Positions 26,292-38,985 of a DNA stretch of 39,807 nt are shown piece after piece. Every line of letters begins with the position of its first letter. The first letter of the stretch is position 1. Source of the stretch: Actinomycetes bacterium (GTDB lineage: Bacteria > Actinomycetota > Coriobacteriia > Anaerosomatales > Anaerosomataceae); NCBI GenBank assembly GCA_021372825.1, contig JAJFTR010000031.1, positions 1 to 39,807 of the forward strand, read 5' to 3'. A model generated the notes under the pieces. It did not search any database, was not told the DNA's origin, and saw nothing but the letters and a program-made list of their open reading frames with translations. Position numbers and translations under genes: made by a program.

Positions 26292-27344
26292 TCAGCAGTG
26301 AGTGACCCGTACGATCTCCTCAGCGATGTCCTGGACTGGCAGGATCTTGCTTACCGCTCCTGCGTCGATCGCCGCCTTGGGCATCCCGAAGACAGTGGAA
26401 GTCTCCTCGTCTTGGGCGATGGTGGGTGCCCCGGCGTCATGAAGCATCTTGAGCCCAACGGCGCCGTCTGCACCCATGCCGGTGAGTAGGACTCCCACCG
26501 CCCGCCCGCCGTGTGATCGGGCCGTGGTCTCGAACAATGTGTCTGCCGAGGGTACGTACAGCTGGTCCTTACGCGGCACGCCGAAGCCGACCTCCATACC
26601 GCGCACCTCGAGGTTGAGCCCCGTCGGGGCGAAGTAGGCGACCCCCGGCTCGACAGTCTGCCCGTCCTCGGCAGCTCTCACCGAGATCCGGCACGCCGCG
26701 TCCAGCCAGCTGACCAGACCGGGGACGAACCCGTCTGCGATGTGCTGCGCGATCACGATCGGCACGGGCAAGTCCCGAGGAAGGCCGCCGAGAACAGACA
26801 TGAGGGCGGATGGACCACCTGTCGATGAGCCGATGGCGATGATCGACCGGCGGATCCCCTCGCGAAAGGGAGCTACTGCGACCGCAGGACCCTGACGACG
26901 GGGCCTGCGGCCCCGTATGTGCGTGATGACCTTCACCTTGGCGAGGATCTTCACCTTGTGGATGATCTCTGTCCCGATACGCTGTAAGTCAGCCCAGTCC
27001 CGAGGCTCCGGTTTCTTGATCACTTCAAGGGCGCCCGCGGCAAGAGCGTCGAAAGCACGCCCGATGCCCTCGCCGTGAACCGACGACGACACCACCAAGA
27101 TCGGCGTTGGAGTGAAGGCCATGATGCGCTCGACCGCTTCGATGCCATCCATGTGTGGCATGTGGATGTCCATCGTCACGAGGTCTGGGCGCATCCGTGC
27201 GACCATCTCGACGGCCTCGCGCCCATCACGAGCGGTCCCCACCACCTCGATAGCGGGGTCAGAGGACAAGATCTGCGTGAGCATCTCCCTGGCGACGAGG
27301 GAGTCATCCACGATGATGACCCTAATGGGTGCCTCGGCACTCAA
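26292..27344 (-). CDS. cheB: Protein-glutamate methylesterase/deamidase CheB
   Basis: A 350-residue two-domain protein. An N-terminal receiver carries VDDS and the phospho-acceptor in VTMDIHMPHMDGIEAV. The C-terminal methylesterase has the triad regions IGSSTGGPSALM (Ser), AQHIADGF (His) and LTGMGADGA (Asp). It removes methyl groups from chemoreceptors. The start is a TTG at 27344, with GGGGAGGG 8 bases upstream. It is the last gene of the chemosensory operon, after cheA (34-base gap). Confidence 0.95.
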   Translation of the reverse strand: MSAEAPIRVIIVDDSLVAREMLTQILSSDPAIEVVGTARDGREAVEMVARMRPDLVTMDIHMPHMDGIEAVERIMAFTPTPILVVSSSVHGEGIGRAFDALAAGALEVIKKPEPRDWADLQRIGTEIIHKVKILAKVKVITHIRGRRPRRQGPAVAVAPFREGIRRSIIAIGSSTGGPSALMSVLGGLPRDLPVPIVIAQHIADGFVPGLVSWLDAACRISVRAAEDGQTVEPGVAYFAPTGLNLEVRGMEVGFGVPRKDQLYVPSADTLFETTARSHGGRAVGVLLTGMGADGAVGLKMLHDAGAPTIAQDEETSTVFGMPKAAIDAGAVSKILPVQDIAEEIVRVTHC

Positions 27345-27378: not shown

Positions 27379-29706
27379 TCACCGTATCAATCTGTCGACG
27401 GTGTCGAGAAGGGTGTCCTGGTTGAACACTGACTTGGTGATGTAGGCGTCTGCGCCTGCCTCGATCCCTTCGGCCTTCTCTTCCTCTCGCTCGAGAGAGG
27501 TGACGATCACCACCGGGATTCCCTGCAGGATGGCATCGGCTTTGATCGCCTTCGTGAGCTGGAACCCCGTCATGTTCGGCATTTGCACGTCGGTGACGAC
27601 CGCGTCCACTTTCAGTCCCTCACGGAGCTTTGCGAGACCGGCGGCACCGTCCACGGCGGTCTCCACTTCATAGCCCGCCGCTTCGAAGATCGACCGCTCC
27701 AACTCCCGCGTCGTGAACGAATCCTCGCAGATGAGGATCCTTCTCGGCCCCTTCTCGACCTGCTCGGCCGCAGTAGGCTCTCTTCTACGAAGCCCTGACA
27801 GCTGCCGCGCGTTGTTCATCAAGTCAGGCACATTGAGGATCGGCACGACTTCGCCTGCGCCAAGGACCGTCACTCCTGCAACGTTGTCCACACGCTGGAG
27901 ATGGGTGCCCAGTGTCTTGATCACTATCTGCTGCTCGCCGACGAACGAGTCCACGATGAAGCCCATCCGGTGACCCGAGAAGCCCAGCGTGACGACAGGC
28001 GTCTTGTTCGTTCTCGCCGCGCTGCCCGTCACTCCGAGGACCTCGCTCAGGTGCACGATCGGAATCGTACGACGTTGCCGCCGGATCACCTCGCGGCCCT
28101 CGACCTTGATGATCTCCTGAGGGTCGACCCGTAGAGTCTCCTCGATGGATGCTGTGGGAAGCGCGAACACCTGCTCGCCGACCCTCACGAGAAGAGCACG
28201 GATTATCGCAAGCGTCAGAGGGATCGTGAGCCGGAACATCGTGCCTTGGCCAAGCTCCGAGAAGACATCGAGCGATCCCTTGAGTTTGTCGACGACGAAC
28301 TCCCGGACGACATCCATCCCCACCCCACGGCCGGAGATCTCGGTGATGATGGCACTCGTCGAGAAGCCTGGCTCGAAGATGAGGTACATCGCTTCGCGGT
28401 CCGACATCGACTTGGCTTCAGTGGCTGTGATGAAGCCCTTTCGCAACGCCGCGGCCCTGACCTTGTCCGGGTCGATACCTGCTCCGTCGTCGGAGACCTC
28501 TATCACGATCTGGTCTCCTTCCTGACGAGCCGCCAGGCGGATCGTACCCTTGGGCGGCTTGCCCGCTGCGATGCGGTCGTCGACGGGCTCGATGCCGTGA
28601 TCCACCGCGTTGCGCATGATGTGTATGAGCGGATCGTTGATCTCCTCAAGGACCTTCTTGTCGAGCTCGGTGTCGCCTCCCTCGATCACGAGGTTCACGT
28701 CCTTCTTGAACTGGTGCGCCAGATCCCTCACCGCACGCGGGAAGGAGTTGAACACGGTGGAGACAGGCAACATGCGCAGCCCCATGCTGTGCTCTTGCAG
28801 ATCGGAGACGACCGTCGATGTGCGAGACGTATCGTCTGCATACTCCTTGGCTAACGCAGCCAGCTGACGCCACTCGTCGGACATCAACCCTTCCAGGATC
28901 TCGATATCCTCATCCAAAGACGAGTCCGCGCCGTCTTCCACATCTGCCAGACGAGCGCGCACGCGGCTCCACGCCTGATGGACCTCGTTGGAGAGCGCTT
29001 GCACAGCGCGTAGATCACGAGCGTGCTGTTCCGTCTTGATCTGAGAGATGACGACCTCGCTCACCAGGTTCAAGAGCCGGTCGACCTGCTCGGTGCGGAT
29101 GCGCACGGTCTGCTGCACGCGTGTCTGCAGCTTCTCCTCGGCGGCAGCCTGGTGTGGGGCACCTCGCCGAGCAGCCGACGGCGCCTGCCGCACCTGTGAC
29201 TTCTGAAGGGGTTCCACAGAGGATGTAGATGGCTCGGAAGCAGACGCCTCCATACCTTGCTCCGGCGCAGACACAGGCGCTGCGACCTCCGGGGTCGAGG
29301 GGGGCTTCGATGGCTCGCCAGAGGCAGCGACTGCGGACAGACGGTCCAACACGGCAGGGATGTCTATCTGCTCCGACACGTCCTTTCCAGCGTTCTCCGA
29401 GAGGAACACGATCGTGTCCAAAGCCTCGAAGAAAGCGTCCGACATGCCGGGGGAGTACCGCATCTCGCCGTCGCGCACCTTGACCATGATGTCCTCGAGC
29501 TTGTGTGAGACGTCCGAGATCTCGATCAAGCCGACCATGCGCGACGAGCCTTTGAGCGTGTGCGCGTCGCGCAACATCTGGTCGATGAGCTCGCGGTTGT
29601 CCGGGTCGCTCTCCAGCGTGATAACGCCCTCGTTCAGCCGCTGAAGGTACTCGCTGGCTTCCTCTTGGAACTTCTTGATGAAGGCGGTACGGTCGAACTC
29701 GACCAT
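27379..29706 (-). CDS. cheA: Chemotaxis histidine kinase CheA with C-terminal receiver domain
   Basis: A 775-residue hybrid. The Hpt domain has its phospho-histidine in MLRDAHTLKGSSRM (His49). A proline/serine-rich linker (about 130-200) without a visible P2 domain follows, then the dimerisation helices (about 205-275), an HATPase domain (NAVDHGIEP, DDGAGID), a CheW-like domain and a receiver (about 655-775) with VDAVVTDVQMPNMTG. The CheA-REC layout matches the FrzE/PilL-type kinases of twitching or gliding systems rather than flagellar CheA. ATG with GGAGGG upstream. Confidence 0.95.
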   Translation of the reverse strand: MVEFDRTAFIKKFQEEASEYLQRLNEGVITLESDPDNRELIDQMLRDAHTLKGSSRMVGLIEISDVSHKLEDIMVKVRDGEMRYSPGMSDAFFEALDTIVFLSENAGKDVSEQIDIPAVLDRLSAVAASGEPSKPPSTPEVAAPVSAPEQGMEASASEPSTSSVEPLQKSQVRQAPSAARRGAPHQAAAEEKLQTRVQQTVRIRTEQVDRLLNLVSEVVISQIKTEQHARDLRAVQALSNEVHQAWSRVRARLADVEDGADSSLDEDIEILEGLMSDEWRQLAALAKEYADDTSRTSTVVSDLQEHSMGLRMLPVSTVFNSFPRAVRDLAHQFKKDVNLVIEGGDTELDKKVLEEINDPLIHIMRNAVDHGIEPVDDRIAAGKPPKGTIRLAARQEGDQIVIEVSDDGAGIDPDKVRAAALRKGFITATEAKSMSDREAMYLIFEPGFSTSAIITEISGRGVGMDVVREFVVDKLKGSLDVFSELGQGTMFRLTIPLTLAIIRALLVRVGEQVFALPTASIEETLRVDPQEIIKVEGREVIRRQRRTIPIVHLSEVLGVTGSAARTNKTPVVTLGFSGHRMGFIVDSFVGEQQIVIKTLGTHLQRVDNVAGVTVLGAGEVVPILNVPDLMNNARQLSGLRRREPTAAEQVEKGPRRILICEDSFTTRELERSIFEAAGYEVETAVDGAAGLAKLREGLKVDAVVTDVQMPNMTGFQLTKAIKADAILQGIPVVIVTSLEREEEKAEGIEAGADAYITKSVFNQDTLLDTVDRLIR

Positions 29707-29740: not shown

Positions 29741-30970
29741 CTAACCTACGATCCGGAAGGCCGCTCCGACATGACTCGACTCTTTTGCGATTGCGGCGAG
29801 TTGCTCGGCAGCGTTGGCGACCTGTCGCGAGCCGGCGGCGGTCTGTTGTGCGACCGCGGCGACCTCACGCATCGCGTTCACCACCTGTTCGGTCGCGCTC
29901 TTCTGCTGCTGCGTTGCGGCCGAGATCTCCTTGGCGGCGACCGTCGTCTGCTCGATCGTCTCCAGGATCTGATCGAGGCCCTCTCCCGTGACGTGCGCGA
30001 GATCGACACCGACGTTGACCTGCTTGAGCTCTTGCTCCGTGGAGATCACCAGGTCGTTCGCCGCAGTCTGTATCTCCGTCATGATCGTCTCGATCTCGCC
30101 GGTGGAATCCACCACGGAAAGGGCGAGTTTGCGAATCTCGCTCGCAACGACCGAGAAACCCTTGCCCGCTTCACCCGCGCGCGCCGCCTCTATGGCAGCG
30201 TTCAACGCCAGGATCTTGGTTTGGTCGGCTATGTTGTTGATGATCGCCAAGACCTGTCCGATCTGCTGGCTGCGCTCGCCCAGTTGAAGGATCTTGTTCG
30301 CCGAGGATTGCGCTCTGGCCTTGATCTGGTCCATAGCATCGAGCGTGTTCATGACGGCCTGCTGGCCTGACTCGGCGTTACCCAAGGACGTCTCGGCCAT
30401 GTGGACGACCTGGTTCGCGTTATCGGCAATCTGACGGTATGTCGAGGCCAGCTCCTCCATGGTAGCCGTCGTCTGTGAGATCGAGGCGGCCTGCTCCGCC
30501 GCGCCTGACGCTTGCTGCTCGGTCGCCGACAAGATCTCGGAGGATGCCTGCGCGAGACGGGTCGATGACTCCTGAGTCTGTGTGATGAGGTACATGATCA
30601 GATCGAGCATCTGGTTGTATGAGCGGGAGAGCACACCGAACTCATCCTTGGAATCGATCTGCACCTTGTGCCCGACTTCGCCCTCACATGCAGCCTTCAC
30701 GCTCTCGACCACGTGGAAGAGCGGCGCCATCATTCTCTTAGCGATGGCCGATTGGACGTAGGCGAACACGACGAGTACTCCTATGAAGACCGCCACCACG
30801 ATCACCAGTTTGCGGATGACATTCGCATCGATGGTGAGCTCGTCGGCAAGGACTGTAGACGCGACCCCGAGTTGGATGAGGTTCGCCACGGCGATAAGCG
30901 CGAGGTTGATCACCGAGTACTTGAACAGAAAACTACTGCTCATCTTACCGAGTAGCTTCTTGATCATCAT
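29741..30970 (-). CDS. Methyl-accepting chemotaxis protein with minimal extracytoplasmic part
   Basis: A 409-residue receptor. Two membrane helices (about 15-40 and 52-75) enclose a loop of only about 10-15 residues, so it has no classical ligand-binding domain. A HAMP domain follows (about 75-130, [20 protein letters not shown]), then the signalling helices with the conserved hairpin tip [20 protein letters not shown]. There is no C-terminal CheR-tethering pentapeptide. It is likely to sense membrane state or an intracellular or partner signal. Two ATGs occur; the second (30967) is better placed from the AGGAG. It stands between cheW and cheA. Confidence 0.92.
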
Positions 30971-30979
30971 CGACTCCTG

Positions 30980-31534
30980 TCAGACCGGTTCGCCTACGGG
31001 TTCGAGCACCTTCTCGAGGTTGATGATGCCGACCAGGCGCTCCTGCGTGTATACAGAGGCACTCACGAAGTCGGCCTGGTTCTTATCCAGCGTGGACAAC
31101 GGCGGTTCGAGCGAATCGCGCGGCACGTCGATGATGTCGCCTATCTCATCGACGACCAGGGTGCTCACGAACGGCTCGCTGCTCACGATGATGCCATTGG
31201 GCTCTCGCACACCGCTATGGTCTTGATCTGACGCGACCCGCATGAGAGCCGCTACGTTGATGACCGAGATGATCTCTCCGCGGACGTTGATGACTCCTAG
31301 TACGTGCGACGGCAACCGGGGGATCCGTGTCACCTCGAAGTCGTTGTAGATCTCGCGCACACCGTCGATCCGCACCGCGTACCACTCCTCGGCGAGACGG
31401 AAGAGCAACAGCCCGATCGTCTCAACGGCGGACTGCTCCAAGTCGACCTGCGCGAGGGACTCAGCTCGCTGCCGCAGGATCTCGGCCGCGCGACCCGCGA
31501 GTGCTGCTGTGGGCGAGGTGTCATTCTCGCTCAT
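30980..31534 (-). CDS. CheW-like coupling protein (second)
   Basis: A 184-residue CheW-domain protein; the ATG at 31534 has GGGAG upstream. The core FRLAEEWYAVRIDGVREIY, RLPSHVLGVINVRGEIISVI is typical of adaptors linking receptor and kinase. It begins inside the 3' end of the other cheW (14-base overlap), so expression is coupled. An N-terminal extension of about 45 residues, partly helical, precedes the domain. Confidence 0.88.
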   Translation of the reverse strand: MSENDTSPTAALAGRAAEILRQRAESLAQVDLEQSAVETIGLLLFRLAEEWYAVRIDGVREIYNDFEVTRIPRLPSHVLGVINVRGEIISVINVAALMRVASDQDHSGVREPNGIIVSSEPFVSTLVVDEIGDIIDVPRDSLEPPLSTLDKNQADFVSASVYTQERLVGIINLEKVLEPVGEPV

Positions 31535-32129
31535 CACCCGGTCTCCCTTCTGCGCCTTCATTCGCCGAGGCGAGCAACACCTGTGGCACAAGGCGATCGG
31601 GGTCCAGGACTATGACGAGTGTCGAACCCGATCGGCAGACCCCGATCATCTTGTCCGCGAGAGCGTAGATCCCCGACGGCGCCTGAACGGAGCCTTCCGG
31701 GACTTCGAACACGTCTTGAACCTCATCGACGATCACTGCCACGAGCTGCCCCCGACTGTGAAGAAGAATCATCGGAGTATCGAGCCGGTACTCCCGTGGC
31801 GGCACCCCCAGTAGCAACCGCAGATCGATCGCAGGGACCACCGACCCCCGTACGTCCAATATGCCGACAAGTGCTGGCGACGAGTCCGGCACCGGCGTGA
31901 ACTCGACGATCTGCTGGATCTCCTGCACGTTCTCGATGGGAACCGCATAAAGCTGATCGCCCAGACCGAAGGTCACCACCTGTCTGAGACTCGCGGTGTC
32001 AGCCGCCTGGCCATGCTCAGGTTCGACGGCGACCTCCTCGGCCACTGCACTCTTCTCGGGCTGTGTCGCGACAGCTTCGGGCGGTTCGGCTTTCTTCTTG
32101 CGTGGCACTTGTTTGCTCCAGCCGGTCAC
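31521..32129 (-). CDS. CheW-like coupling protein (first)
   Basis: A 202-residue adaptor with a charged 45-residue N-terminal tail (KKKAEPPEAV) and a CheW domain (QVVTFGLGDQLYAVPIENVQEI, ALVGILDVRGSVVPAIDLR). It starts at a GTG overlapping the stop of the PilB-like gene by 4 bases (GTGA). It differs clearly from the second CheW, so the two may couple different partners, for example the receptor and the pseudo-ATPase. Confidence 0.88.
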   Translation of the reverse strand: MTGWSKQVPRKKKAEPPEAVATQPEKSAVAEEVAVEPEHGQAADTASLRQVVTFGLGDQLYAVPIENVQEIQQIVEFTPVPDSSPALVGILDVRGSVVPAIDLRLLLGVPPREYRLDTPMILLHSRGQLVAVIVDEVQDVFEVPEGSVQAPSGIYALADKMIGVCRSGSTLVIVLDPDRLVPQVLLASANEGAEGRPGDERE

Positions 32130-33997
32130 GTGAACCTAAGGACTCGATCGAGCTCATCGGCACTGACCTGGCCCGAGATGACGCGCGCCAAGCCGGACGC
32201 AATGAGCGGGCGCATGCCTGCAGCCTCTGCGGCGGCGGCGATCTGCGGCGCCGACCCACCCGCGGCGACCACCGAACGAACCGGTTCGGTGAACGGAAGC
32301 ACCTCGAAGATACCCGTCGCACCCCGGAACCCGGTCTTGCCGCAGTTGGGACACCCTGTACCCGCCTTGTTGACCGTCCCTTCGGGCACGCCGGGAAGCT
32401 TGGCGAGCGCCGCGGAAGGCGCCTCCTGCGTGCAACTCCTGCAGTTGAGCCGTACCAATCGCTGACCGACGCCAAGAGTGAGCGCCGAGGCGAGACTGTG
32501 CGGCTCCACACCCAAGGCGAGCAACCGGCTCACGCCGGACGCGACGTCTGCAGCAGGGAACGTTGCGATCACAAGCTTGCCGAGCCCCGCCGCTTCGACC
32601 GCGATGTGCACATCCTCCACCGACCGGATGCTGTCGACTGCGATGACATCAGTGTCCTGCCTGAGACCCGCAGCGATATAGTTCGCCGCGGGCACCGGTG
32701 AAGCCGTGTTCACCACGACCTGGGCGACTGCAGGTATCTCGTAGTCGATGGAGTACTCGACCGAGTACACGGTCTTGCCGACCTTCGCCGCATGCGCGAG
32801 CAGCGCGTAGTATGTGCTGCTCGCACCGGCGGCGACCGGAGCGCACAACAAGAGCAGCCCGCGCCCTCGCTCGACCATCGCATGGAGCGCCCTCGCTTCG
32901 GCATCAGACATGCCGAGCTCTGACAGACCCTTAGGCTCTGGCCGCTGACCCTCCAGCGAGATCACCATGCGCTGCCCGGCTATCGTCGGGACGGAGGAGA
33001 CCGTCACCACAAGGTCGCGGTCACCAACCCGTGTGCGTGTACGAGCGAAGGACGGGTTGGAGCCAGTCTCCACGGACATCTTTGCAAAACTCTTGAAGGC
33101 GTCGATCAAGGCGCCCTGGAGCGACAAAGGAGCGCTGGCGACCTTCTCGAGAACCCCTTTGACGCGGTAGACCAAGAAGAAGTCGTCTTTGTAGGGCAGG
33201 AGGTGGATCATCGAGGCGCCTCGGCTCACCGCATGCTCGAGGATCTCTGTCACGAGGACGGCGACTTTGCGTGAGTCGGCAACCGCCAGGATGTCCAGAT
33301 CGATCGCCGGTGGACCTTCGGGAGGAGGAGCCTCCACCATCTCCTGGATCGTCTCGACCGGTTGGCGCGCCGGTTCCTCCGCTGCCTCGGCGATCGGGAC
33401 CACCGGTACCGATGGAGTCGCTTCTTCCTCGGAGTACTCTCCGAAGAAGTCGGATACCGCAAGCCCAGGCGTGCCCGCGCTCGACGTAGATCCCGGCTCC
33501 GCAGACGCACCCGTCTCTCCAGACACGCGTGGTGCGGGACCCGGCTCGGCAGCAGCCTCGCCGTAGTACTGGGCGATGGCAGCGCTCACTGCTGCAGGAT
33601 CTGCCAGGACCGGCTCTACCTCGACTCCGAGCTCGGCCGCTAGATCGTCAAGCGTGAAGACGTCCATCGGCTCGCCTACGGCGACGGTGAGCATGCCCTC
33701 GATCTCGAAAAGCGGCAGAACGCGCCTGGTGCGGGCGATCGTACTCGGCACGAGCGCGAGTGCCGAGTCCTCCGGCGCGTAACTCGAAAGATCGACGTGC
33801 GGCACCCCCATCTCATGCTCGAGCACGGATTCGATATCCGCGGAGGAGACCAAGCCCCGTTCGATCAGTGCCGAACCGACAGAAACGCCCGCCTCGGCCG
33901 CCTGGCGCTCGAGCGATGAGATCTGCTCGGGAGTCAGCAACCCCGCAGCGCTCAGGCTGTCGAGGACCCGGCTCGTGATGCCCGACGGATCTATCAT
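32126..33997 (-). CDS. PilB/GspE-like protein lacking ATPase motifs (pseudo-ATPase)
   Basis: This 623-residue protein has the architecture of a type IV pilus/type II secretion ATPase. An N-terminal MshEN-like helical module (about 1-140, with GLLTPEQISSLE and GLVSSADIESVL) and a low-complexity acidic linker (about 145-235) precede the N2-like and motor domains. The catalytic residues are absent. Walker A reads APVAAGASS (386-394) instead of GPTGSGKTT, so the lysine is Ala392. Walker B reads DVIAVDSIR (450-458), with Ser for Glu. The His box reads ATFPAA. The Asp box ASDIH is ASMIH. The four zinc cysteines remain (519, 522, 549, 552), with CPNCGKTGFRGATGIFEVL intact. It lies inside the chemosensory operon, overlapping cheW. 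I infer a non-catalytic scaffold or c-di-GMP-responsive output. Confidence 0.85.
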   Translation of the reverse strand: MIDPSGITSRVLDSLSAAGLLTPEQISSLERQAAEAGVSVGSALIERGLVSSADIESVLEHEMGVPHVDLSSYAPEDSALALVPSTIARTRRVLPLFEIEGMLTVAVGEPMDVFTLDDLAAELGVEVEPVLADPAAVSAAIAQYYGEAAAEPGPAPRVSGETGASAEPGSTSSAGTPGLAVSDFFGEYSEEEATPSVPVVPIAEAAEEPARQPVETIQEMVEAPPPEGPPAIDLDILAVADSRKVAVLVTEILEHAVSRGASMIHLLPYKDDFFLVYRVKGVLEKVASAPLSLQGALIDAFKSFAKMSVETGSNPSFARTRTRVGDRDLVVTVSSVPTIAGQRMVISLEGQRPEPKGLSELGMSDAEARALHAMVERGRGLLLLCAPVAAGASSTYYALLAHAAKVGKTVYSVEYSIDYEIPAVAQVVVNTASPVPAANYIAAGLRQDTDVIAVDSIRSVEDVHIAVEAAGLGKLVIATFPAADVASGVSRLLALGVEPHSLASALTLGVGQRLVRLNCRSCTQEAPSAALAKLPGVPEGTVNKAGTGCPNCGKTGFRGATGIFEVLPFTEPVRSVVAAGGSAPQIAAAAEAAGMRPLIASGLARVISGQVSADELDRVLRFT

Positions 33998-34004
33998 CGT
34001 CCCG

Positions 34005-34382
34005 CTACCCTTGCGCCTTGGCGAGCTCTTCGGCTACCGCGGCGAGGAGAGTATCGGGCTCGATGGGCTTGGTGAGGTACTGGTCGGCGCCCGTACGGAT
34101 GCCCGTCGCCATTGCCTGCTCCTCGGTCTTGGCCGTGAGCATGATGATCGGGATGTTCTTGTAGTTCTGGTCGAACTTCAAGAGCCGGCACACCCGGTAC
34201 CCGTCGAGCTTGGGCAGCATCACGTCGAGCAGGATCAGTTCCGGCTTCTCATCGCGTGCGGTCTTGAGAGCCTCTGCTCCATCTGAAGCGGTGATCACCT
34301 CATAGCCCCCGGATTCGAGAATCGCCTTGATCATCTCAAGGATGGTCGGGCTGTCGTCGACCGCGAGTATTCGTGCGCCCAC
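34005..34382 (-). CDS. Stand-alone receiver-domain response regulator (CheY/PilG-like)
   Basis: A 125-residue single receiver domain. Acidic pocket VDDS, phospho-acceptor in LILLDVMLPKLDG, Thr in MLTAKT and Lys in YLTKPI are all present. It starts at a GTG with GGAGGGAG upstream and lies 7 bases before the PilB-like gene. As the only stand-alone receiver in the cluster, it is the likely diffusible output of the kinase. It could bind the adjacent PilB-like protein. Confidence 0.93.
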   Translation of the reverse strand: MGARILAVDDSPTILEMIKAILESGGYEVITASDGAEALKTARDEKPELILLDVMLPKLDGYRVCRLLKFDQNYKNIPIIMLTAKTEEQAMATGIRTGADQYLTKPIEPDTLLAAVAEELAKAQG

Positions 34383-34456: not shown

Positions 34457-35995
34457 CTATGCCGCACCCATCGCCTTCCGACACTCTAGCAGACTGCGCT
34501 CGCACGTCTTCGCGAGAAGATCCGCCTTGAATCCGCCCAGGAACTCCGTCCAAGCTCCTTCGGGGCTCTTGTACAGGGCCCGAAGAGCGTTCTCGTACTC
34601 ACGTGCAGCAGCGTCCCATTTGCGCTGAGCCTTGTAGATATTGGCGAGGTTCAGGTGCGCAAGAGCGAACTCCGAGTCGATGTAGATGGTCTTCTTGAGC
34701 TCGCTCACAGCGCGAACAGAGTCGCCTTGACGCTGGTAGATGATCCCCAGGATGTAGCGGGCAACGGGAAGAAGCGGATCGATCGCGAGCGCCCGGTGGC
34801 ACGCTTCGAGCGCCAGCTCGTAATCACCCGAGTCTGCGTGCACATATGCAGACAGGAGATGGGCTTCGGCGTTGTTCGGATCACGCTCGAGTAGCTTCCC
34901 TACGAGTTCCAGGACGCGCTCCGGATGGCCATGCTCCATGTTGTGCCGGGCGCTCTCAAGCAGGTCTTCCTCCGCCGGAGCCTGTGGCGTGCGCGGAGGA
35001 TCGGCAGAGCCACGTGACGGCCGCGAAGCGGGCGCGGCTTCGGCTCGCCGCTTCGTGGCCGCGGACCCCGCCGAGCCCTTAGGCCGTGAGTCCACGGCCA
35101 CGTCTTTGAGCGAGAACCCTGTCACCGGTCTTGTAGCGCTGTGCCGACGCTTCTTGGGTTTGCGATACAGGAACACCCCGCCCACTTCCAGCGGCTCGAA
35201 TGCGTCGCTGATCGAGGAGAGCGTCTCGGAGTGTCCGATGAACAGGTAACCACCCTCGTTCAGGCTGTTGTAGAAGTTCTCGACCACGCGTCTGGTCGAC
35301 TCCAGGCGGAAGTAGATCGTGACGTTCCTGCAAAAGATGACGTCCCAGTTCCCCATGAGTGACAGCGGATATGGTTCCTTGATCAGGTTGTGATAGCCGA
35401 AATCGACGAGTGATTTCACGTGAGGCGCCACCACATACTTGTCGCCTTTGACCTCGAAGTGCCGGGCGATCGTTTCGCGCGGCAGGTTGAGGACCGACCT
35501 GTGGGTGTACTCCCCCTTCTTGGCCATCGTCAGGGCCTTCGTGGACACGTCCGTGCCCAGCACCTGCACCTGCCAGCCCAACCCAGGGATCCCCGCATCG
35601 ATGGCGGTCATGGCGATCGAGTACGGCTCCTCACCGGTCGAGCAGCCGGCGGACCAAATGCGGATCGTGCGGTTGTGCGCTGGCTTTCCTGCCATGATCT
35701 CAGGAAGCACGCGCGTACGAAGAGCATCGAACTGTTGTGGGAATCGGAAGAAGCTGGTCTCGTTGATCGTGATGAGGTTCATCAACTCGTTGAACTCACG
35801 TTCATCATTCGCAAGTGCCTGATAGTACCCGTCAAAGTCAGGGTAGTTGAGCCGCGTTGCGCGGGTCACGAGCGAGATGCGCAGCGAATCGAGTTTACTG
35901 TCTTCGAGGTAGATCCCGGACGCTTGGTGGATGAAGTCACGGAAGCGGGCGAACTCCTCGGGTGTGAGGTCCTTCGCAAGGCCATCGCCGTTCAT
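34457..35995 (-). CDS. cheR: Chemoreceptor methyltransferase CheR with C-terminal TPR domain
   Basis: The protein has 512 residues. The N-terminal CheR domain is followed by the SAM-binding methyltransferase core (IRIWSAGCSTGEEPYSIAM, DVIFCRNVTIYF, HSETL; about 1-280). After a basic, alanine/proline-rich linker (about 282-340) come three to four TPR repeats (about 345-485, for example EAHLLSAYVHADSGDYELAL). CheR-TPR fusions such as FrzF are typical of surface-motility chemosensory systems. The start has only a weak ribosome site. It follows the DUF4388 gene by 13 bases. Confidence 0.93.
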   Translation of the reverse strand: MNGDGLAKDLTPEEFARFRDFIHQASGIYLEDSKLDSLRISLVTRATRLNYPDFDGYYQALANDEREFNELMNLITINETSFFRFPQQFDALRTRVLPEIMAGKPAHNRTIRIWSAGCSTGEEPYSIAMTAIDAGIPGLGWQVQVLGTDVSTKALTMAKKGEYTHRSVLNLPRETIARHFEVKGDKYVVAPHVKSLVDFGYHNLIKEPYPLSLMGNWDVIFCRNVTIYFRLESTRRVVENFYNSLNEGGYLFIGHSETLSSISDAFEPLEVGGVFLYRKPKKRRHSATRPVTGFSLKDVAVDSRPKGSAGSAATKRRAEAAPASRPSRGSADPPRTPQAPAEEDLLESARHNMEHGHPERVLELVGKLLERDPNNAEAHLLSAYVHADSGDYELALEACHRALAIDPLLPVARYILGIIYQRQGDSVRAVSELKKTIYIDSEFALAHLNLANIYKAQRKWDAAAREYENALRALYKSPEGAWTEFLGGFKADLLAKTCERSLLECRKAMGAA

Positions 35996-36008: not shown

Positions 36009-36755
36009 TCACTCGGCCACGCTCTCGACGTCGACCCCGATGCGCTCGATCAGCCCAGCGGCGTACATCCCGTACAGGATCTTGGCTGTTTCAAAGTCGT
36101 TGTAGCCGGTCAGTTCCACGAGTTCACGGACTGAGCGTCCTCCGTGCAAGTAGCACAGGAGCATCCACTCACGCGGTTTCAGGTGGATCTCCATCGACTT
36201 GTCACCGGGAGCCGATGCCATCACGAACTCAGTGTCGAGCGACGGGATCTTCTGGCGGATGCGGCCCCACAGTTCGAGGCGCCGAGACGCCTCCATGATG
36301 ATGTTCTCCACCGACACCGAGATGCCGATGTCCTCTTCCTCGCATGCCTCATCGGCCTCGAAACGCAGCTGCCCTTCGTCCCAGCGGAAGAGGTCGAACA
36401 ACGTGTCGTGTATCTGCTCCTGGATGAAGCTTTCGAGAACCTTCGCGTCCAGGTAGCCTTCGTCAACCAGGATCTGCCCAAGCCGACGGTCGGCCTTCTC
36501 CTTCTTCTGGATCTTCTGAAGACCCAACGCCTGTCGCAGCTGCTTCTCCGATATGACACCCGCTTTCACGAGCCTGCGCCCGAGCGATTCCCGATGCCAA
36601 TTCGAGGAAGCGAAGAACACGCGTCCCTTCTTGAAGCAGACCTTGCCCTGAGCATCAGGGCGCTCGAGGTAGAGCGTACCGGTCTTGCGACCCGACGCCA
36701 ACAAGCGGAACATATCCGCAAGCGAGAAGTCCTTGAGGTTGCCCTCGAGGGCCAC
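36009..36755 (-). CDS. DUF4388 (PatA-like) protein
   Basis: A 248-residue protein starting at GTG (36755) with GGAGG 5 bases upstream. The N-terminus LEGNLKDFSLADMFRLLASG is the DUF4388 signature, ending near FKKGRVFFASSNW. A helical part follows with two MshEN-like stretches (LGRRLVKAGVISEKQL, RRLGQILVDEGYLDAKVL), then LFRWDEGQLRFE and a C-terminal winged-helix-like segment (LKPREWMLLCYLHGGRSVRE). DUF4388 proteins often sit in chemosensory or GTPase clusters and are thought to be regulatory. It is the first gene of the operon. The shared MshEN-like motif with the PilB-like protein suggests a common ligand or fold. Confidence 0.85.
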   Translation of the reverse strand: MALEGNLKDFSLADMFRLLASGRKTGTLYLERPDAQGKVCFKKGRVFFASSNWHRESLGRRLVKAGVISEKQLRQALGLQKIQKKEKADRRLGQILVDEGYLDAKVLESFIQEQIHDTLFDLFRWDEGQLRFEADEACEEEDIGISVSVENIIMEASRRLELWGRIRQKIPSLDTEFVMASAPGDKSMEIHLKPREWMLLCYLHGGRSVRELVELTGYNDFETAKILYGMYAAGLIERIGVDVESVAE

Positions 36756-36980
36756 GCCTTCCTCCCAACTGTTCCGTCTAAGCCTCGCCGGAGGGCCCGA
36801 CACGGGGCCGAAGAGATGTGCACGTGACAGTACCGTCACCGCATTGGTGCACAAGCGAATCCTAGCACGCAGACGCTGTCGACAGGTAGACGTACGCCGC
36901 CCGGCCCGCATCGGATCGCGCTCACGTGCGGGGTGCCGCTACCGTTCACCGACAGGTGGCGCCGACGCTTGTGAAACCAC
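36756..36980. other. Divergent regulatory region between chemosensory and ArsR-led operons (left part)
   Basis: No gene I can support. On the minus strand, 36824-36839 holds an inverted repeat GTGAC...GTCAC with a 6-base gap, about 70 bases before the DUF4388 start. TAGGAT near 36863 is a poor -10 candidate. I could not place a convincing promoter for the chemosensory operon. Confidence 0.4.
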
Positions 36981-37041: not shown

Positions 37042-37067
37042 ACACAGCCTTTGCCGGAAGGTGCGTG

Positions 37068-37409
37068 ATGGACGAGCGCTTCTACTGTCTGCACTCAGAG
37101 GTCTGCAAGACACTGGCGAATGCCAAGAGGCAGATGATCCTCGAGTCTCTCCGCTCAGGCGAACTGACCGTCTCGCAAATGGTCGAGCGCACGGGCGTCC
37201 CGCAAGCCACCCTCTCCCAGCACCTGGCGATCATGCGCTCCAAAGGCGTCGTCGTCGCACGGCGAAGTGGCAACAACGTCTACTACTCACTCACCAGCCC
37301 CAAGATCCTCCAGGCCTTCGACCTCATCACCGAGGTCATGCGGGAGGCCGAGCAGGTGCGGAGTACTGCTGGTGACGCCGAACAGCGTGACGAGGTCGAA
37401 CCGGCCTGA
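37068..37409 (+). CDS. ArsR/SmtB-family transcriptional repressor
   Basis: A 113-residue winged-helix protein. The ATG at 37068 has GGAAGG 6 bases upstream. KTLANAKRQMILESLRSGEL, then VSQMVERTGVPQATLSQHLAIM (recognition helix) and VVVARRSGNNVYYSL (wing), are typical. Two cysteines sit near the N-terminus (about 7 and 13), and the usual metal ligands (ELCVC) are missing, so it may sense a redox or sulfur signal rather than arsenic. It leads the DsrE2-TusA operon after a 40-base gap. Confidence 0.92.
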   Translation: MDERFYCLHSEVCKTLANAKRQMILESLRSGELTVSQMVERTGVPQATLSQHLAIMRSKGVVVARRSGNNVYYSLTSPKILQAFDLITEVMREAEQVRSTAGDAEQRDEVEPA

Positions 37410-37449
37410 GGGCCGTGTCCTGTCATGTCGTCCTAACGAGGAGGAAGCG

Positions 37450-37938
37450 ATGCCCGATGAAGTGAACGAACAGAAGAAGCTCGCGATGGTGGTCATGAGC
37501 GGAGACATGGACAGGCTTTTCGGGGCGTTCATCATCGCCACCGGAGCCGCCGCCATGGGCATGGAAGTGACGATGTTCTTCACGTTCTGGGGCTTGAGGG
37601 CTCTCAAGAAGAACGTGCGGACAGGGACTTCTTTCTTTGGCAAGATGCTAGGCCTGTTCTATGGAGGAGACATCTCCAAGAGCAACCCGAGCAAGTTCAG
37701 CTTCGGTGGTATGGGACGCTGGATGTTCCGGAAGATGATGGGCGCTCACAACGTCGCGAGCTTGCCTGAACTGCGCGACCTCGCGATCCAGCTCGGCGTG
37801 AACATGTACGGGTGCCAGATGTCGATGGATGTCATGGAGATCCCACGCGAATCGTTCGTCGAGGGGGTCAAGGAACCCGTCGGTGTCGGGTTCTTCCTCA
37901 TGAAAGCACAGGAAGCCGAAGTCCAGCTCTTCATCTAG
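37450..37938 (+). CDS. DsrE2-type sulfur-transfer protein (DsrE family)
   Basis: A 162-residue protein with a ribosome site GAGGAAG. It has the DsrE2 pattern: KKLAMVVMSGDMDRLFGAFIIATGAAAMGMEVTMFFTF (shown here only as the region of residues 9-46), then an RWMF segment, and the active-site cysteine Cys122 in YGCQMSMDVME. It has a hydrophobic N-terminal stretch. DsrE2 proteins pass persulfide sulfur to partners such as TusA, which is encoded next. It has no other cysteine, so a single persulfide carrier is likely. Confidence 0.9.
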   Translation: MPDEVNEQKKLAMVVMSGDMDRLFGAFIIATGAAAMGMEVTMFFTFWGLRALKKNVRTGTSFFGKMLGLFYGGDISKSNPSKFSFGGMGRWMFRKMMGAHNVASLPELRDLAIQLGVNMYGCQMSMDVMEIPRESFVEGVKEPVGVGFFLMKAQEAEVQLFI

Positions 37939-37975
37939 CCGCTACAGGCGTTCGATCATCATTGGTGACCAGCCG

Positions 37976-37993
37976 CGCCGCTTGCGCGCGGCG
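37976..37993 (+). other. Small hairpin in the dsrE2-tusA spacer
   Basis: A 6-bp stem CGCCGC/GCGGCG with a 6-base loop lies just before the tusA ribosome site. It may stabilise or process the message; no T-run follows, so it is not a terminator. Confidence 0.35.
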
Positions 37994-38012
37994 AGATGAA
38001 AAGGAGACCGCC

Positions 38013-38255
38013 ATGTCCGACGAGAACAAAGTAGACCTCGAACTCGATCTCAAGGGATTGCTCTGCCCGCTCCCCATGGTGAAGGTGAGCCAGAACATCG
38101 GAAACGTCCCTGTAGGCGGCGTCATCCGTGCAGTCGCCACAGACCCCGGTGCTATGGCCGACATCCCCGCGTGGGCGAAGTCGACCGGCAACGAAGTCAT
38201 CTCAGCCGAGAAGGAAGGCAGTGAATTCGTCTTCCTCGTCAAGCGGGTGAAGTAG
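38013..38255 (+). CDS. tusA: TusA family sulfurtransferase
   Basis: An 80-residue protein with AAAAGGAG before the ATG. Its active-site motif is LDLKGLLCPLPMVKV, with Cys18 followed by the CPxP signature. TusA carries sulfane sulfur as a persulfide. It lies 74 bases after the DsrE2-like gene and 4 bases before the membrane subunit gene, so sulfur relay to the Dsr/Hdr-like enzyme is the natural reading. Confidence 0.95.
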   Translation: MSDENKVDLELDLKGLLCPLPMVKVSQNIGNVPVGGVIRAVATDPGAMADIPAWAKSTGNEVISAEKEGSEFVFLVKRVK

Positions 38256-38259
38256 GAGC

Positions 38260-38985
38260 ATGGAGACCTACCTCTGGATCACTGCCGTCTGGGGCGTCTA
38301 CTTGGCTGCCCTCGTGTTCTTCGTGGGCATCGGCTGGCGGATCTACCAGTGGGCGACCACCCCGAAGTCACCCGTGCCGCTGGGTCTCTTCCCGAAGCCG
38401 GCCACCAAGGGTGGAAGGTTCGGGAAGATGTTCGCTGACACGTTCCTGGCCCCTCACTCAGCGCGCATCGAGCCGACGATGTGGGCCTTCGCGATGATGT
38501 TCCACGTGGCGGCGCTTGCGGCTTTCGTCGGACATCTCCGCATCCTCGGAGAGTACCCGCTTCTCCCGAGCCTTCTCGGCCCTGACGGGATGAACTCGTT
38601 CGCTGCGTGGGCTGGCTCGATCGCGGGATCACTCATGTTGATCGGCGTGGTGTATTGGATCTCTCGGCGCACCTTCGGGCCCTACAAGAACCTCTCGGTA
38701 CCCGAGGACTACTTACTGCTCGCACTGCTCCTCGGCGTCGTTATCATGGGCGACCACATGCGTTTCGTGTACGGCGGCACGATCCATGCCGAGACGTACC
38801 GCGCGTGGTTCTTGAGCCTGCTCGCGTTCAGACCTGCGTTTCCTGAGCACCTGCTGCAAGGTAATGTCGGCTGGTCGCTCGGTACGCACATGCTGTTCAC
38901 GGACCTCTTCTTGATGTACTTCCCGTTCAGCAAGCTCGTTCACGCGATCGGCTCGTTCTCGACCAACCTGGTGAGGAGTGAGTAG
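38260..38985 (+). CDS. NarI/DsrM-like cytochrome b membrane subunit
   Basis: A 241-residue integral membrane protein with about five helices. Helix one starts at the N-terminus (ITAVWGVYLAALVFFVGIGW). Candidate haem-ligand histidines lie at MFHVAALAAFVGHLR and SKLVHAIG, with a GDHMRF loop between. The family links quinol to DsrK/HdrD-type subunits. It is 4 bases after tusA and ends one base before the next start, typical of a two-subunit complex. Confidence 0.88.
   Translation: METYLWITAVWGVYLAALVFFVGIGWRIYQWATTPKSPVPLGLFPKPATKGGRFGKMFADTFLAPHSARIEPTMWAFAMMFHVAALAAFVGHLRILGEYPLLPSLLGPDGMNSFAAWAGSIAGSLMLIGVVYWISRRTFGPYKNLSVPEDYLLLALLLGVVIMGDHMRFVYGGTIHAETYRAWFLSLLAFRPAFPEHLLQGNVGWSLGTHMLFTDLFLMYFPFSKLVHAIGSFSTNLVRSE

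Follow-up and report, generated by a model that had tools for sequence, protein, structure and literature searches.

A Conserved PilB Relative without Catalytic Residues in a Chemosensory Operon of Flagella-Less Bacteria

The locus and its encoded proteins

The window, by which we mean the whole 39,807-nucleotide stretch of DNA analyzed, contains a nine-gene minus-strand operon in the order DUF4388-CheR-REC-pseudo-PilB-CheW-CheW-MCP-CheA-CheB (Table 1). This order was retained in 49 of the 49 loci inspected (a set in which some genomes are represented twice), as far as the contigs extend. CheA, CheW, MCP, CheR, CheB, and a receiver within a single operon are features of a type IV pilus-linked chemosensory system. 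The gene of interest encodes a PilB/GspE-like pseudo-ATPase (pseudo-PilB). A sequence-only reading of the window had placed it between a receiver gene and the CheW genes, and the fixed order across the 49 loci agrees. The same reading described overlapping starts and stops, which proved correct at the 3′ end (4 bp shared with the first CheW) and incorrect at the 5′ end, where a 7 bp gap follows the receiver gene. All five phosphorylation-site residues of the receiver, whose phospho-acceptor is Asp53, are invariant in 49/49 alignment rows. The MCP has no periplasmic sensor domain and, because so few residues lie between its membrane helices, probably senses through partner proteins. A Pfam scan of the nine operon genes returned neither CheC nor CheD. 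On the plus strand adjoining the operon (37065-38985), an ArsR-like regulator, DsrE-like and TusA-like sulfur-relay proteins, and a membrane protein resembling the nitrate-reductase gamma subunit were recognized by eye.

Table 1. Features of the chemosensory operon and of pseudo-PilB, in window coordinates
Feature	Position	Strand	Basis and remarks
DUF4388 (PATAN-type) protein	36009..36911	-	Pfam; true start probably near 36755; MshEN-type c-di-GMP motif above curated cut-off
CheR with TPR repeats	34457..35995	-	Pfam
Single-domain receiver (REC), directly upstream of the pseudo-ATPase	34005..34382	-	Pfam and alignment
PilB/GspE-like pseudo-ATPase	32126..33997	-	623 aa; ORF with Pfam MshEN and T2SSE; best PDB matches by sequence and fold are PilB
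MshEN-like N-terminal domain, residues 1-150	33548..33997	-	Degenerate c-di-GMP motif, with RVL in place of RLG and neither the second Arg nor the second Gln retained
Variable linker, predicted disordered, residues about 151-227	33317..33547	-	pLDDT <50 at 150-227; orthologues unalignable there
T2SSE motor-type domain, residues 241-618	32144..33277	-	Pfam
Degenerate Walker A APVAAGAS, residues 386-393	32819..32842	-	Orthologue alignment
Degenerate Walker B DTDVIAVDS, residues 448-456	32630..32656	-	Orthologue alignment
Lost His box TFPAAD, residues 479-484	32546..32563	-	Alignment; canonical box is TLHTND
Zinc tetracysteine Cys519/522/549/552	32342..32443	-	Invariant in 54/54 orthologues
CheW 1	31521..32129	-	ORF and Pfam; start overlaps pseudo-ATPase stop by 4 bp
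CheW 2	30980..31591	-	ORF and Pfam; longest ORF, true start may lie further in
MCP with HAMP and two membrane helices, about 17 residues between	29741..30970	-	Pfam; helices by eye
CheA: Hpt, kinase, CheW-like, and receiver domains	27379..29706	-	Pfam
CheB	26292..27344	-	Pfam

The Pfam scan of pseudo-PilB identified MshEN at residues 63-150 (67.9 bits, cut-off 23.1) and T2SSE at residues 241-618 (202.7 bits, cut-off 24.9), and PilB and GspE/EpsE are its nearest PDB entries both by sequence and by predicted fold. From the AlphaFold model (mean pLDDT 77.9, pTM 0.49), only the fold and the linker were taken, and no active-site detail. Against the PilB model TIGR02538, pseudo-PilB scored 294.6 bits, below the curated cut-off of 675.65, and against the GspE equivalog 264 bits, below the cut-off of 630.25. 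The three catalytic PilBs of the same genome (652.7, 661.2, and 618.9 bits) come much closer to the PilB cut-off without reaching it.

The earlier claim that the catalytic boxes are altered within a preserved PilB layout was borne out at every residue by the ORF translation and the alignments, including Cys519, 522, 549, and 552. Ala392 occupies the Walker A Lys position, Ser456 occupies the Walker B Glu position, and the His box, Asp box, and Arg region read ATFPAA, ASMIH, and DLVVTVSSVPT, respectively. Relative to the extension ATPase PilB (TIGR02538; 5tsg/5tsh, 5zfr, 6olj), pseudo-PilB shares the domain layout, fold, tetracysteine, and 45 structural positions, whereas the Walker A Lys, Walker B Glu, and His box are absent and the Asp box and Arg region are changed. 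Given that residues shaping the P-loop are still present (Pro387, Gly391, Ser/Thr393, and Thr395), weak nucleotide binding is possible. A protein with a PilB/GspE-type sequence does not have to be an ATPase.

Conservation, selection, and origin

Searching for orthologues with the same changes in the same operon, as the sequence-only reading had proposed, yielded pseudo-PilB at 53-71% identity in 58 of the 69 genomes of the order, which we take to be OPB41/Anaerosomatales. At a threshold of E 1e-60, genomes from the remaining orders of the class yielded no orthologue. When 84,980 species genomes were scanned, all matches of at least 54% identity were Actinobacteria/Coriobacteriia records and MAGs; a few weak matches at 24-28% were also returned. 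Changes first read from one sequence are common to 54 distinct orthologues. The Walker A Lys position is occupied by Arg (28), Ala (16), Ser (7), or Gly (3), and the Walker B Glu position by Gly, Ser, Pro, Ala, or Thr, with Lys and Glu each found in 0/54. Together with the His-box and Asp-box residues, they are gone from all or nearly all of the set, while the four zinc cysteines, Asp455, and Gly391 are unchanging in all 54. Comparison of the family with 59 canonical sequences gave 45 positions conserved in both and 9 conserved differently; a further 30 near-invariant canonical positions, the catalytic ones among them, are variable in the pseudo-PilB family. Leu267, Val276, Thr449, and Asp455 belong to positions that the pseudo-PilB family conserves and canonical PilB does not.

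Four independent species pairs gave pseudo-PilB dN/dS values of 0.06-0.08; a fifth gave 0.25, with CheR at 0.26 in that pair. The values resemble those for the operon CheA and CheR. Across the 69 genomes, pseudo-PilB and its partner CheA were both present in 56 and both absent from 10, with pseudo-PilB alone in 2 and CheA alone in 1 (Fisher p 2e-9, uncorrected for relatedness). In the two genomes with pseudo-PilB alone, the contigs break off inside the CheA gene or ahead of it. Gains and losses of pseudo-PilB coincide with those of its CheA. One could still suppose a decaying gene or an assembly artefact, given the missing catalytic residues and a Walker A Lys position that varies freely. The comparative data refute this supposition and leave it next to no probability: the gene occurs in 58/69 genomes with fixed synteny, low dN/dS, and no internal stops in its reading frame, and because the loss is fixed order-wide under purifying selection, simple decay is rejected. 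The simplest reading of the alignments is that catalysis was lost while strong selection acted on the rest of the protein. Order-wide conservation, dN/dS, and the 49 loci uphold the earlier proposal of a selected, full-length, non-catalytic PilB relative in a chemosensory operon.

A phylum-wide profile search for full-length relatives recovered three with comparable che operons in one other class (G611, G621, and G677). In G611, an intact PilB (GPTGSGKS) directly follows CheR and a receiver, and the same operon has CheW, CheA, MCP, and CheB. In G621 and G677, the gene order is DUF4388-CheR-REC-PilB-CheW-CheW-MCP-CheA, and the protein keeps the Walker A Lys and Walker B Glu with the His box and Asp box gone and the Arg also lost. 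The sequence-only reading had held that relatives with intact boxes would mark the window copy as simply decayed. Such relatives do exist, in full form in G611 and for Lys and Glu in G621 and G677, but since the loss is fixed across the whole order under purifying selection, they do not show decay. In a fourth relative, G399, an intact PilB follows genes for a histidine kinase and a receiver (HK-REC-PilB), with no che genes nearby. In an IQ-TREE phylogeny, G677, G621, G611, and G399 fall successively outside the window clade (UFBoot 100, 88, 100, and 78).

By this comparison, the protein descends from a true PilB that was paired with a receiver gene and was later placed inside a chemosensory operon, and the three che-operon relatives represent earlier states; the ATP-hydrolysis residues were lost afterwards, with the fold and zinc site retained. 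The putative first step, a receiver-PilB pair without che genes, rests on one genome, G399 (UFBoot 78). We also considered whether the pair is typical of the class of G399 and rejected this, as it was absent from two other genomes of that class. Because of this absence, and because the che-operon form occurs in only 3 of the 36 genomes of the class containing G611, G621, and G677, horizontal transfer is possible.

c-di-GMP motifs

The MshEN c-di-GMP receptor is built from two RLGxx(L/V/I)...LxxxLxxQ motifs (PMC5013675). Using the NCBIfam MshE-type motif model (cut-off 38 bits), the three PilBs of the genome scored 40.5, 59.8, and 56.2 bits, all above the cut-off, as did the operon DUF4388 protein (44.8 bits, with a spacer longer than usual). 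Pseudo-PilB scored 19.6 bits, below the cut-off. The Gly of the motif-I RLG is replaced by Leu (RVL). Neither Gln32 nor Arg38 is retained, and Gln61 has been substituted in most cases. The sequence-only reading had suggested that pseudo-PilB senses c-di-GMP through its own MshEN-like N-terminus, and the MshEN fold is indeed present with a clear Pfam score; of 25 orthologues, 18 match the motif weakly. However, the best of these reached E 1e-7, which is weaker than a 33.2-bit match in the same library (E 3.4e-8), so none of the 25 appears to reach the cut-off. On the sequence evidence of its own score and degenerate motif, we reject c-di-GMP binding by pseudo-PilB and regard a receptor role as highly improbable. 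In the DUF4388 protein, the second motif (RRLGQILVDEGYL...Q) is nearly invariant, and any entry of c-di-GMP into the pathway probably lies there.

Proposed coupling to the type IV pilus

FlhA was detected in 0 of the 69 genomes of the order, whereas four positive controls were detected. A flagellar role for the operon is therefore very unlikely, and flagellar chemotaxis was rejected. The chemosensory genes in this order of flagella-less environmental bacteria are not evidence of swimming. Canonical PilB-type ATPases occur in 69/69 genomes, and elsewhere the window genome encodes three intact PilB-like ATPases, PilT-like ATPases, and one PilC-family protein. The operon is not adjacent to pil genes in this genome. 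As judged from the genomes compared, these flagella-less bacteria, which carry PilB, conserve a PilB relative without the residues for catalysis within a complete chemosensory operon. Because it is strongly conserved despite the loss of its ATP-burning residues, pseudo-PilB has probably turned from an engine into a signaling part, a function that we infer with good circumstantial support.

The contact of chemosensory pathways with the pilus motor is poorly understood. We favor, at roughly an even chance, a model in which a nucleotide-free PilB mimic acts together with the intact receiver from the adjacent gene to connect CheA with the type IV pilus, as an output to the motor. Pseudo-PilB would probably remain permanently in a nucleotide-free, PilB-shaped state. 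CheA would phosphorylate the neighboring receiver, which, alone or with the DUF4388 protein, would bind pseudo-PilB and alter how it engages the pilus machine. In the simplest form, pseudo-PilB would occupy or release the pilus base, either the PilC-family platform or the real PilB ring, such that extension is switched with pseudo-PilB itself doing no work. Output to the motor is favored because the receiver is the oldest gene partner of pseudo-PilB. The earlier suggestion of a scaffold between CheA output and PilB is plausible. A purely structural part, for example one that holds the array or the receiver at the pilus pole and has no switching function, would account for a kept fold and zinc site with an active site free to vary, and for the adjoining CheW genes; it leaves unexplained the long-standing pairing with a receiver of invariant phosphorylation site, and we judge it improbable.

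We found no report in the open literature of an inactive PilB in a che operon or of DUF4388 linked with type IV pili, and we know of no PilB paralogue in the Pil-Chp operon of Pseudomonas aeruginosa. That system (PMC11656802) resembles the present one in its link to type IV pili and its stand-alone receivers but differs in that its outputs include cAMP. Synechocystis Tax/Pix likewise places type IV pili under che-type control with PATAN/DUF4388 proteins and receivers (PMC7690835). Binding to PilB1 has been reported for PixE, a PATAN-REC protein of Synechocystis (PMC7690835), and the DUF4388 gene of the operon is accordingly a second candidate link to the pilus motor. In contrast to Synechocystis, the present operon encodes PATAN and receiver as two proteins, and its PilB-like product is non-catalytic.

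The opposite direction of coupling has the better experimental precedent. In Myxococcus xanthus, PilB signals to the Dif chemosensory pathway, the signaling form is nucleotide-free, and a PilB with the Walker A Lys changed to Ala, which does not hydrolyze ATP, is similar to the apo form and sends a constitutive signal upstream of Dif (PMC5544727). The window protein naturally carries this same change. There, however, one motor is bifunctional, whereas here a separate non-catalytic paralogue lies in a che operon with intact PilBs elsewhere. A PilB-shaped reporter could accordingly sense the state of the pilus base and signal to the MCP-CheW-CheA array, an arrangement in keeping with a gene beside two CheW genes and a receptor devoid of a periplasmic sensor. 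A Geobacter study argued that receptors without a periplasmic part sense through partner proteins, with DifA as an example (PMC2577667). In those Dif-like Geobacter and Myxococcus clusters, too, the MCPs have two membrane helices and almost nothing in the periplasm (PMC2577667). Those clusters include CheC and CheD, whereas the present operon has CheB, CheR, DUF4388, and pseudo-PilB. This difference counts against the input direction, as does the receiver, an output part that is the closest gene partner throughout the evolutionary series; we consider the input direction possible though doubtful. To the same tentative degree, the two roles of PilB may have been split, with catalytic PilBs as motors and a dedicated nucleotide-free PilB reporting pilus state to the array, which, if true, would allow contact or the pilus to be sensed with no need for a periplasmic receptor domain. 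Output to the motor remains the favored direction, and both could be true.

Here, the signaling side of a PilB would have been separated from its motor activity, with graded intermediates kept. For this reason, the signaling surface should be findable by comparison and could be tested without crippling the pilus motor.

Other pilus and chemosensory genes were observed elsewhere in the window genome. A pilus motor cluster (C67, L131:11687-19708) reads PilB-DUF4388-Ras/MglA-like small GTPase-PilB-PilT, and its DUF4388 paralogue is 54% identical over 253 aa to the operon DUF4388 protein. A second chemosensory cluster (C93, L130:8925-14811) comprises CheA with a P2 domain, a weak CheC match, CheB, a receiver, CheW, and MCP. 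A PilT-like gene lies about 6 kb from this cluster, and the genome lacks FlhA. On the minus strand of C56 (L133:2489-4213), a 574-aa protein fuses a receiver to a PilT-type ATPase with an intact Walker A (GPTGSGKS).
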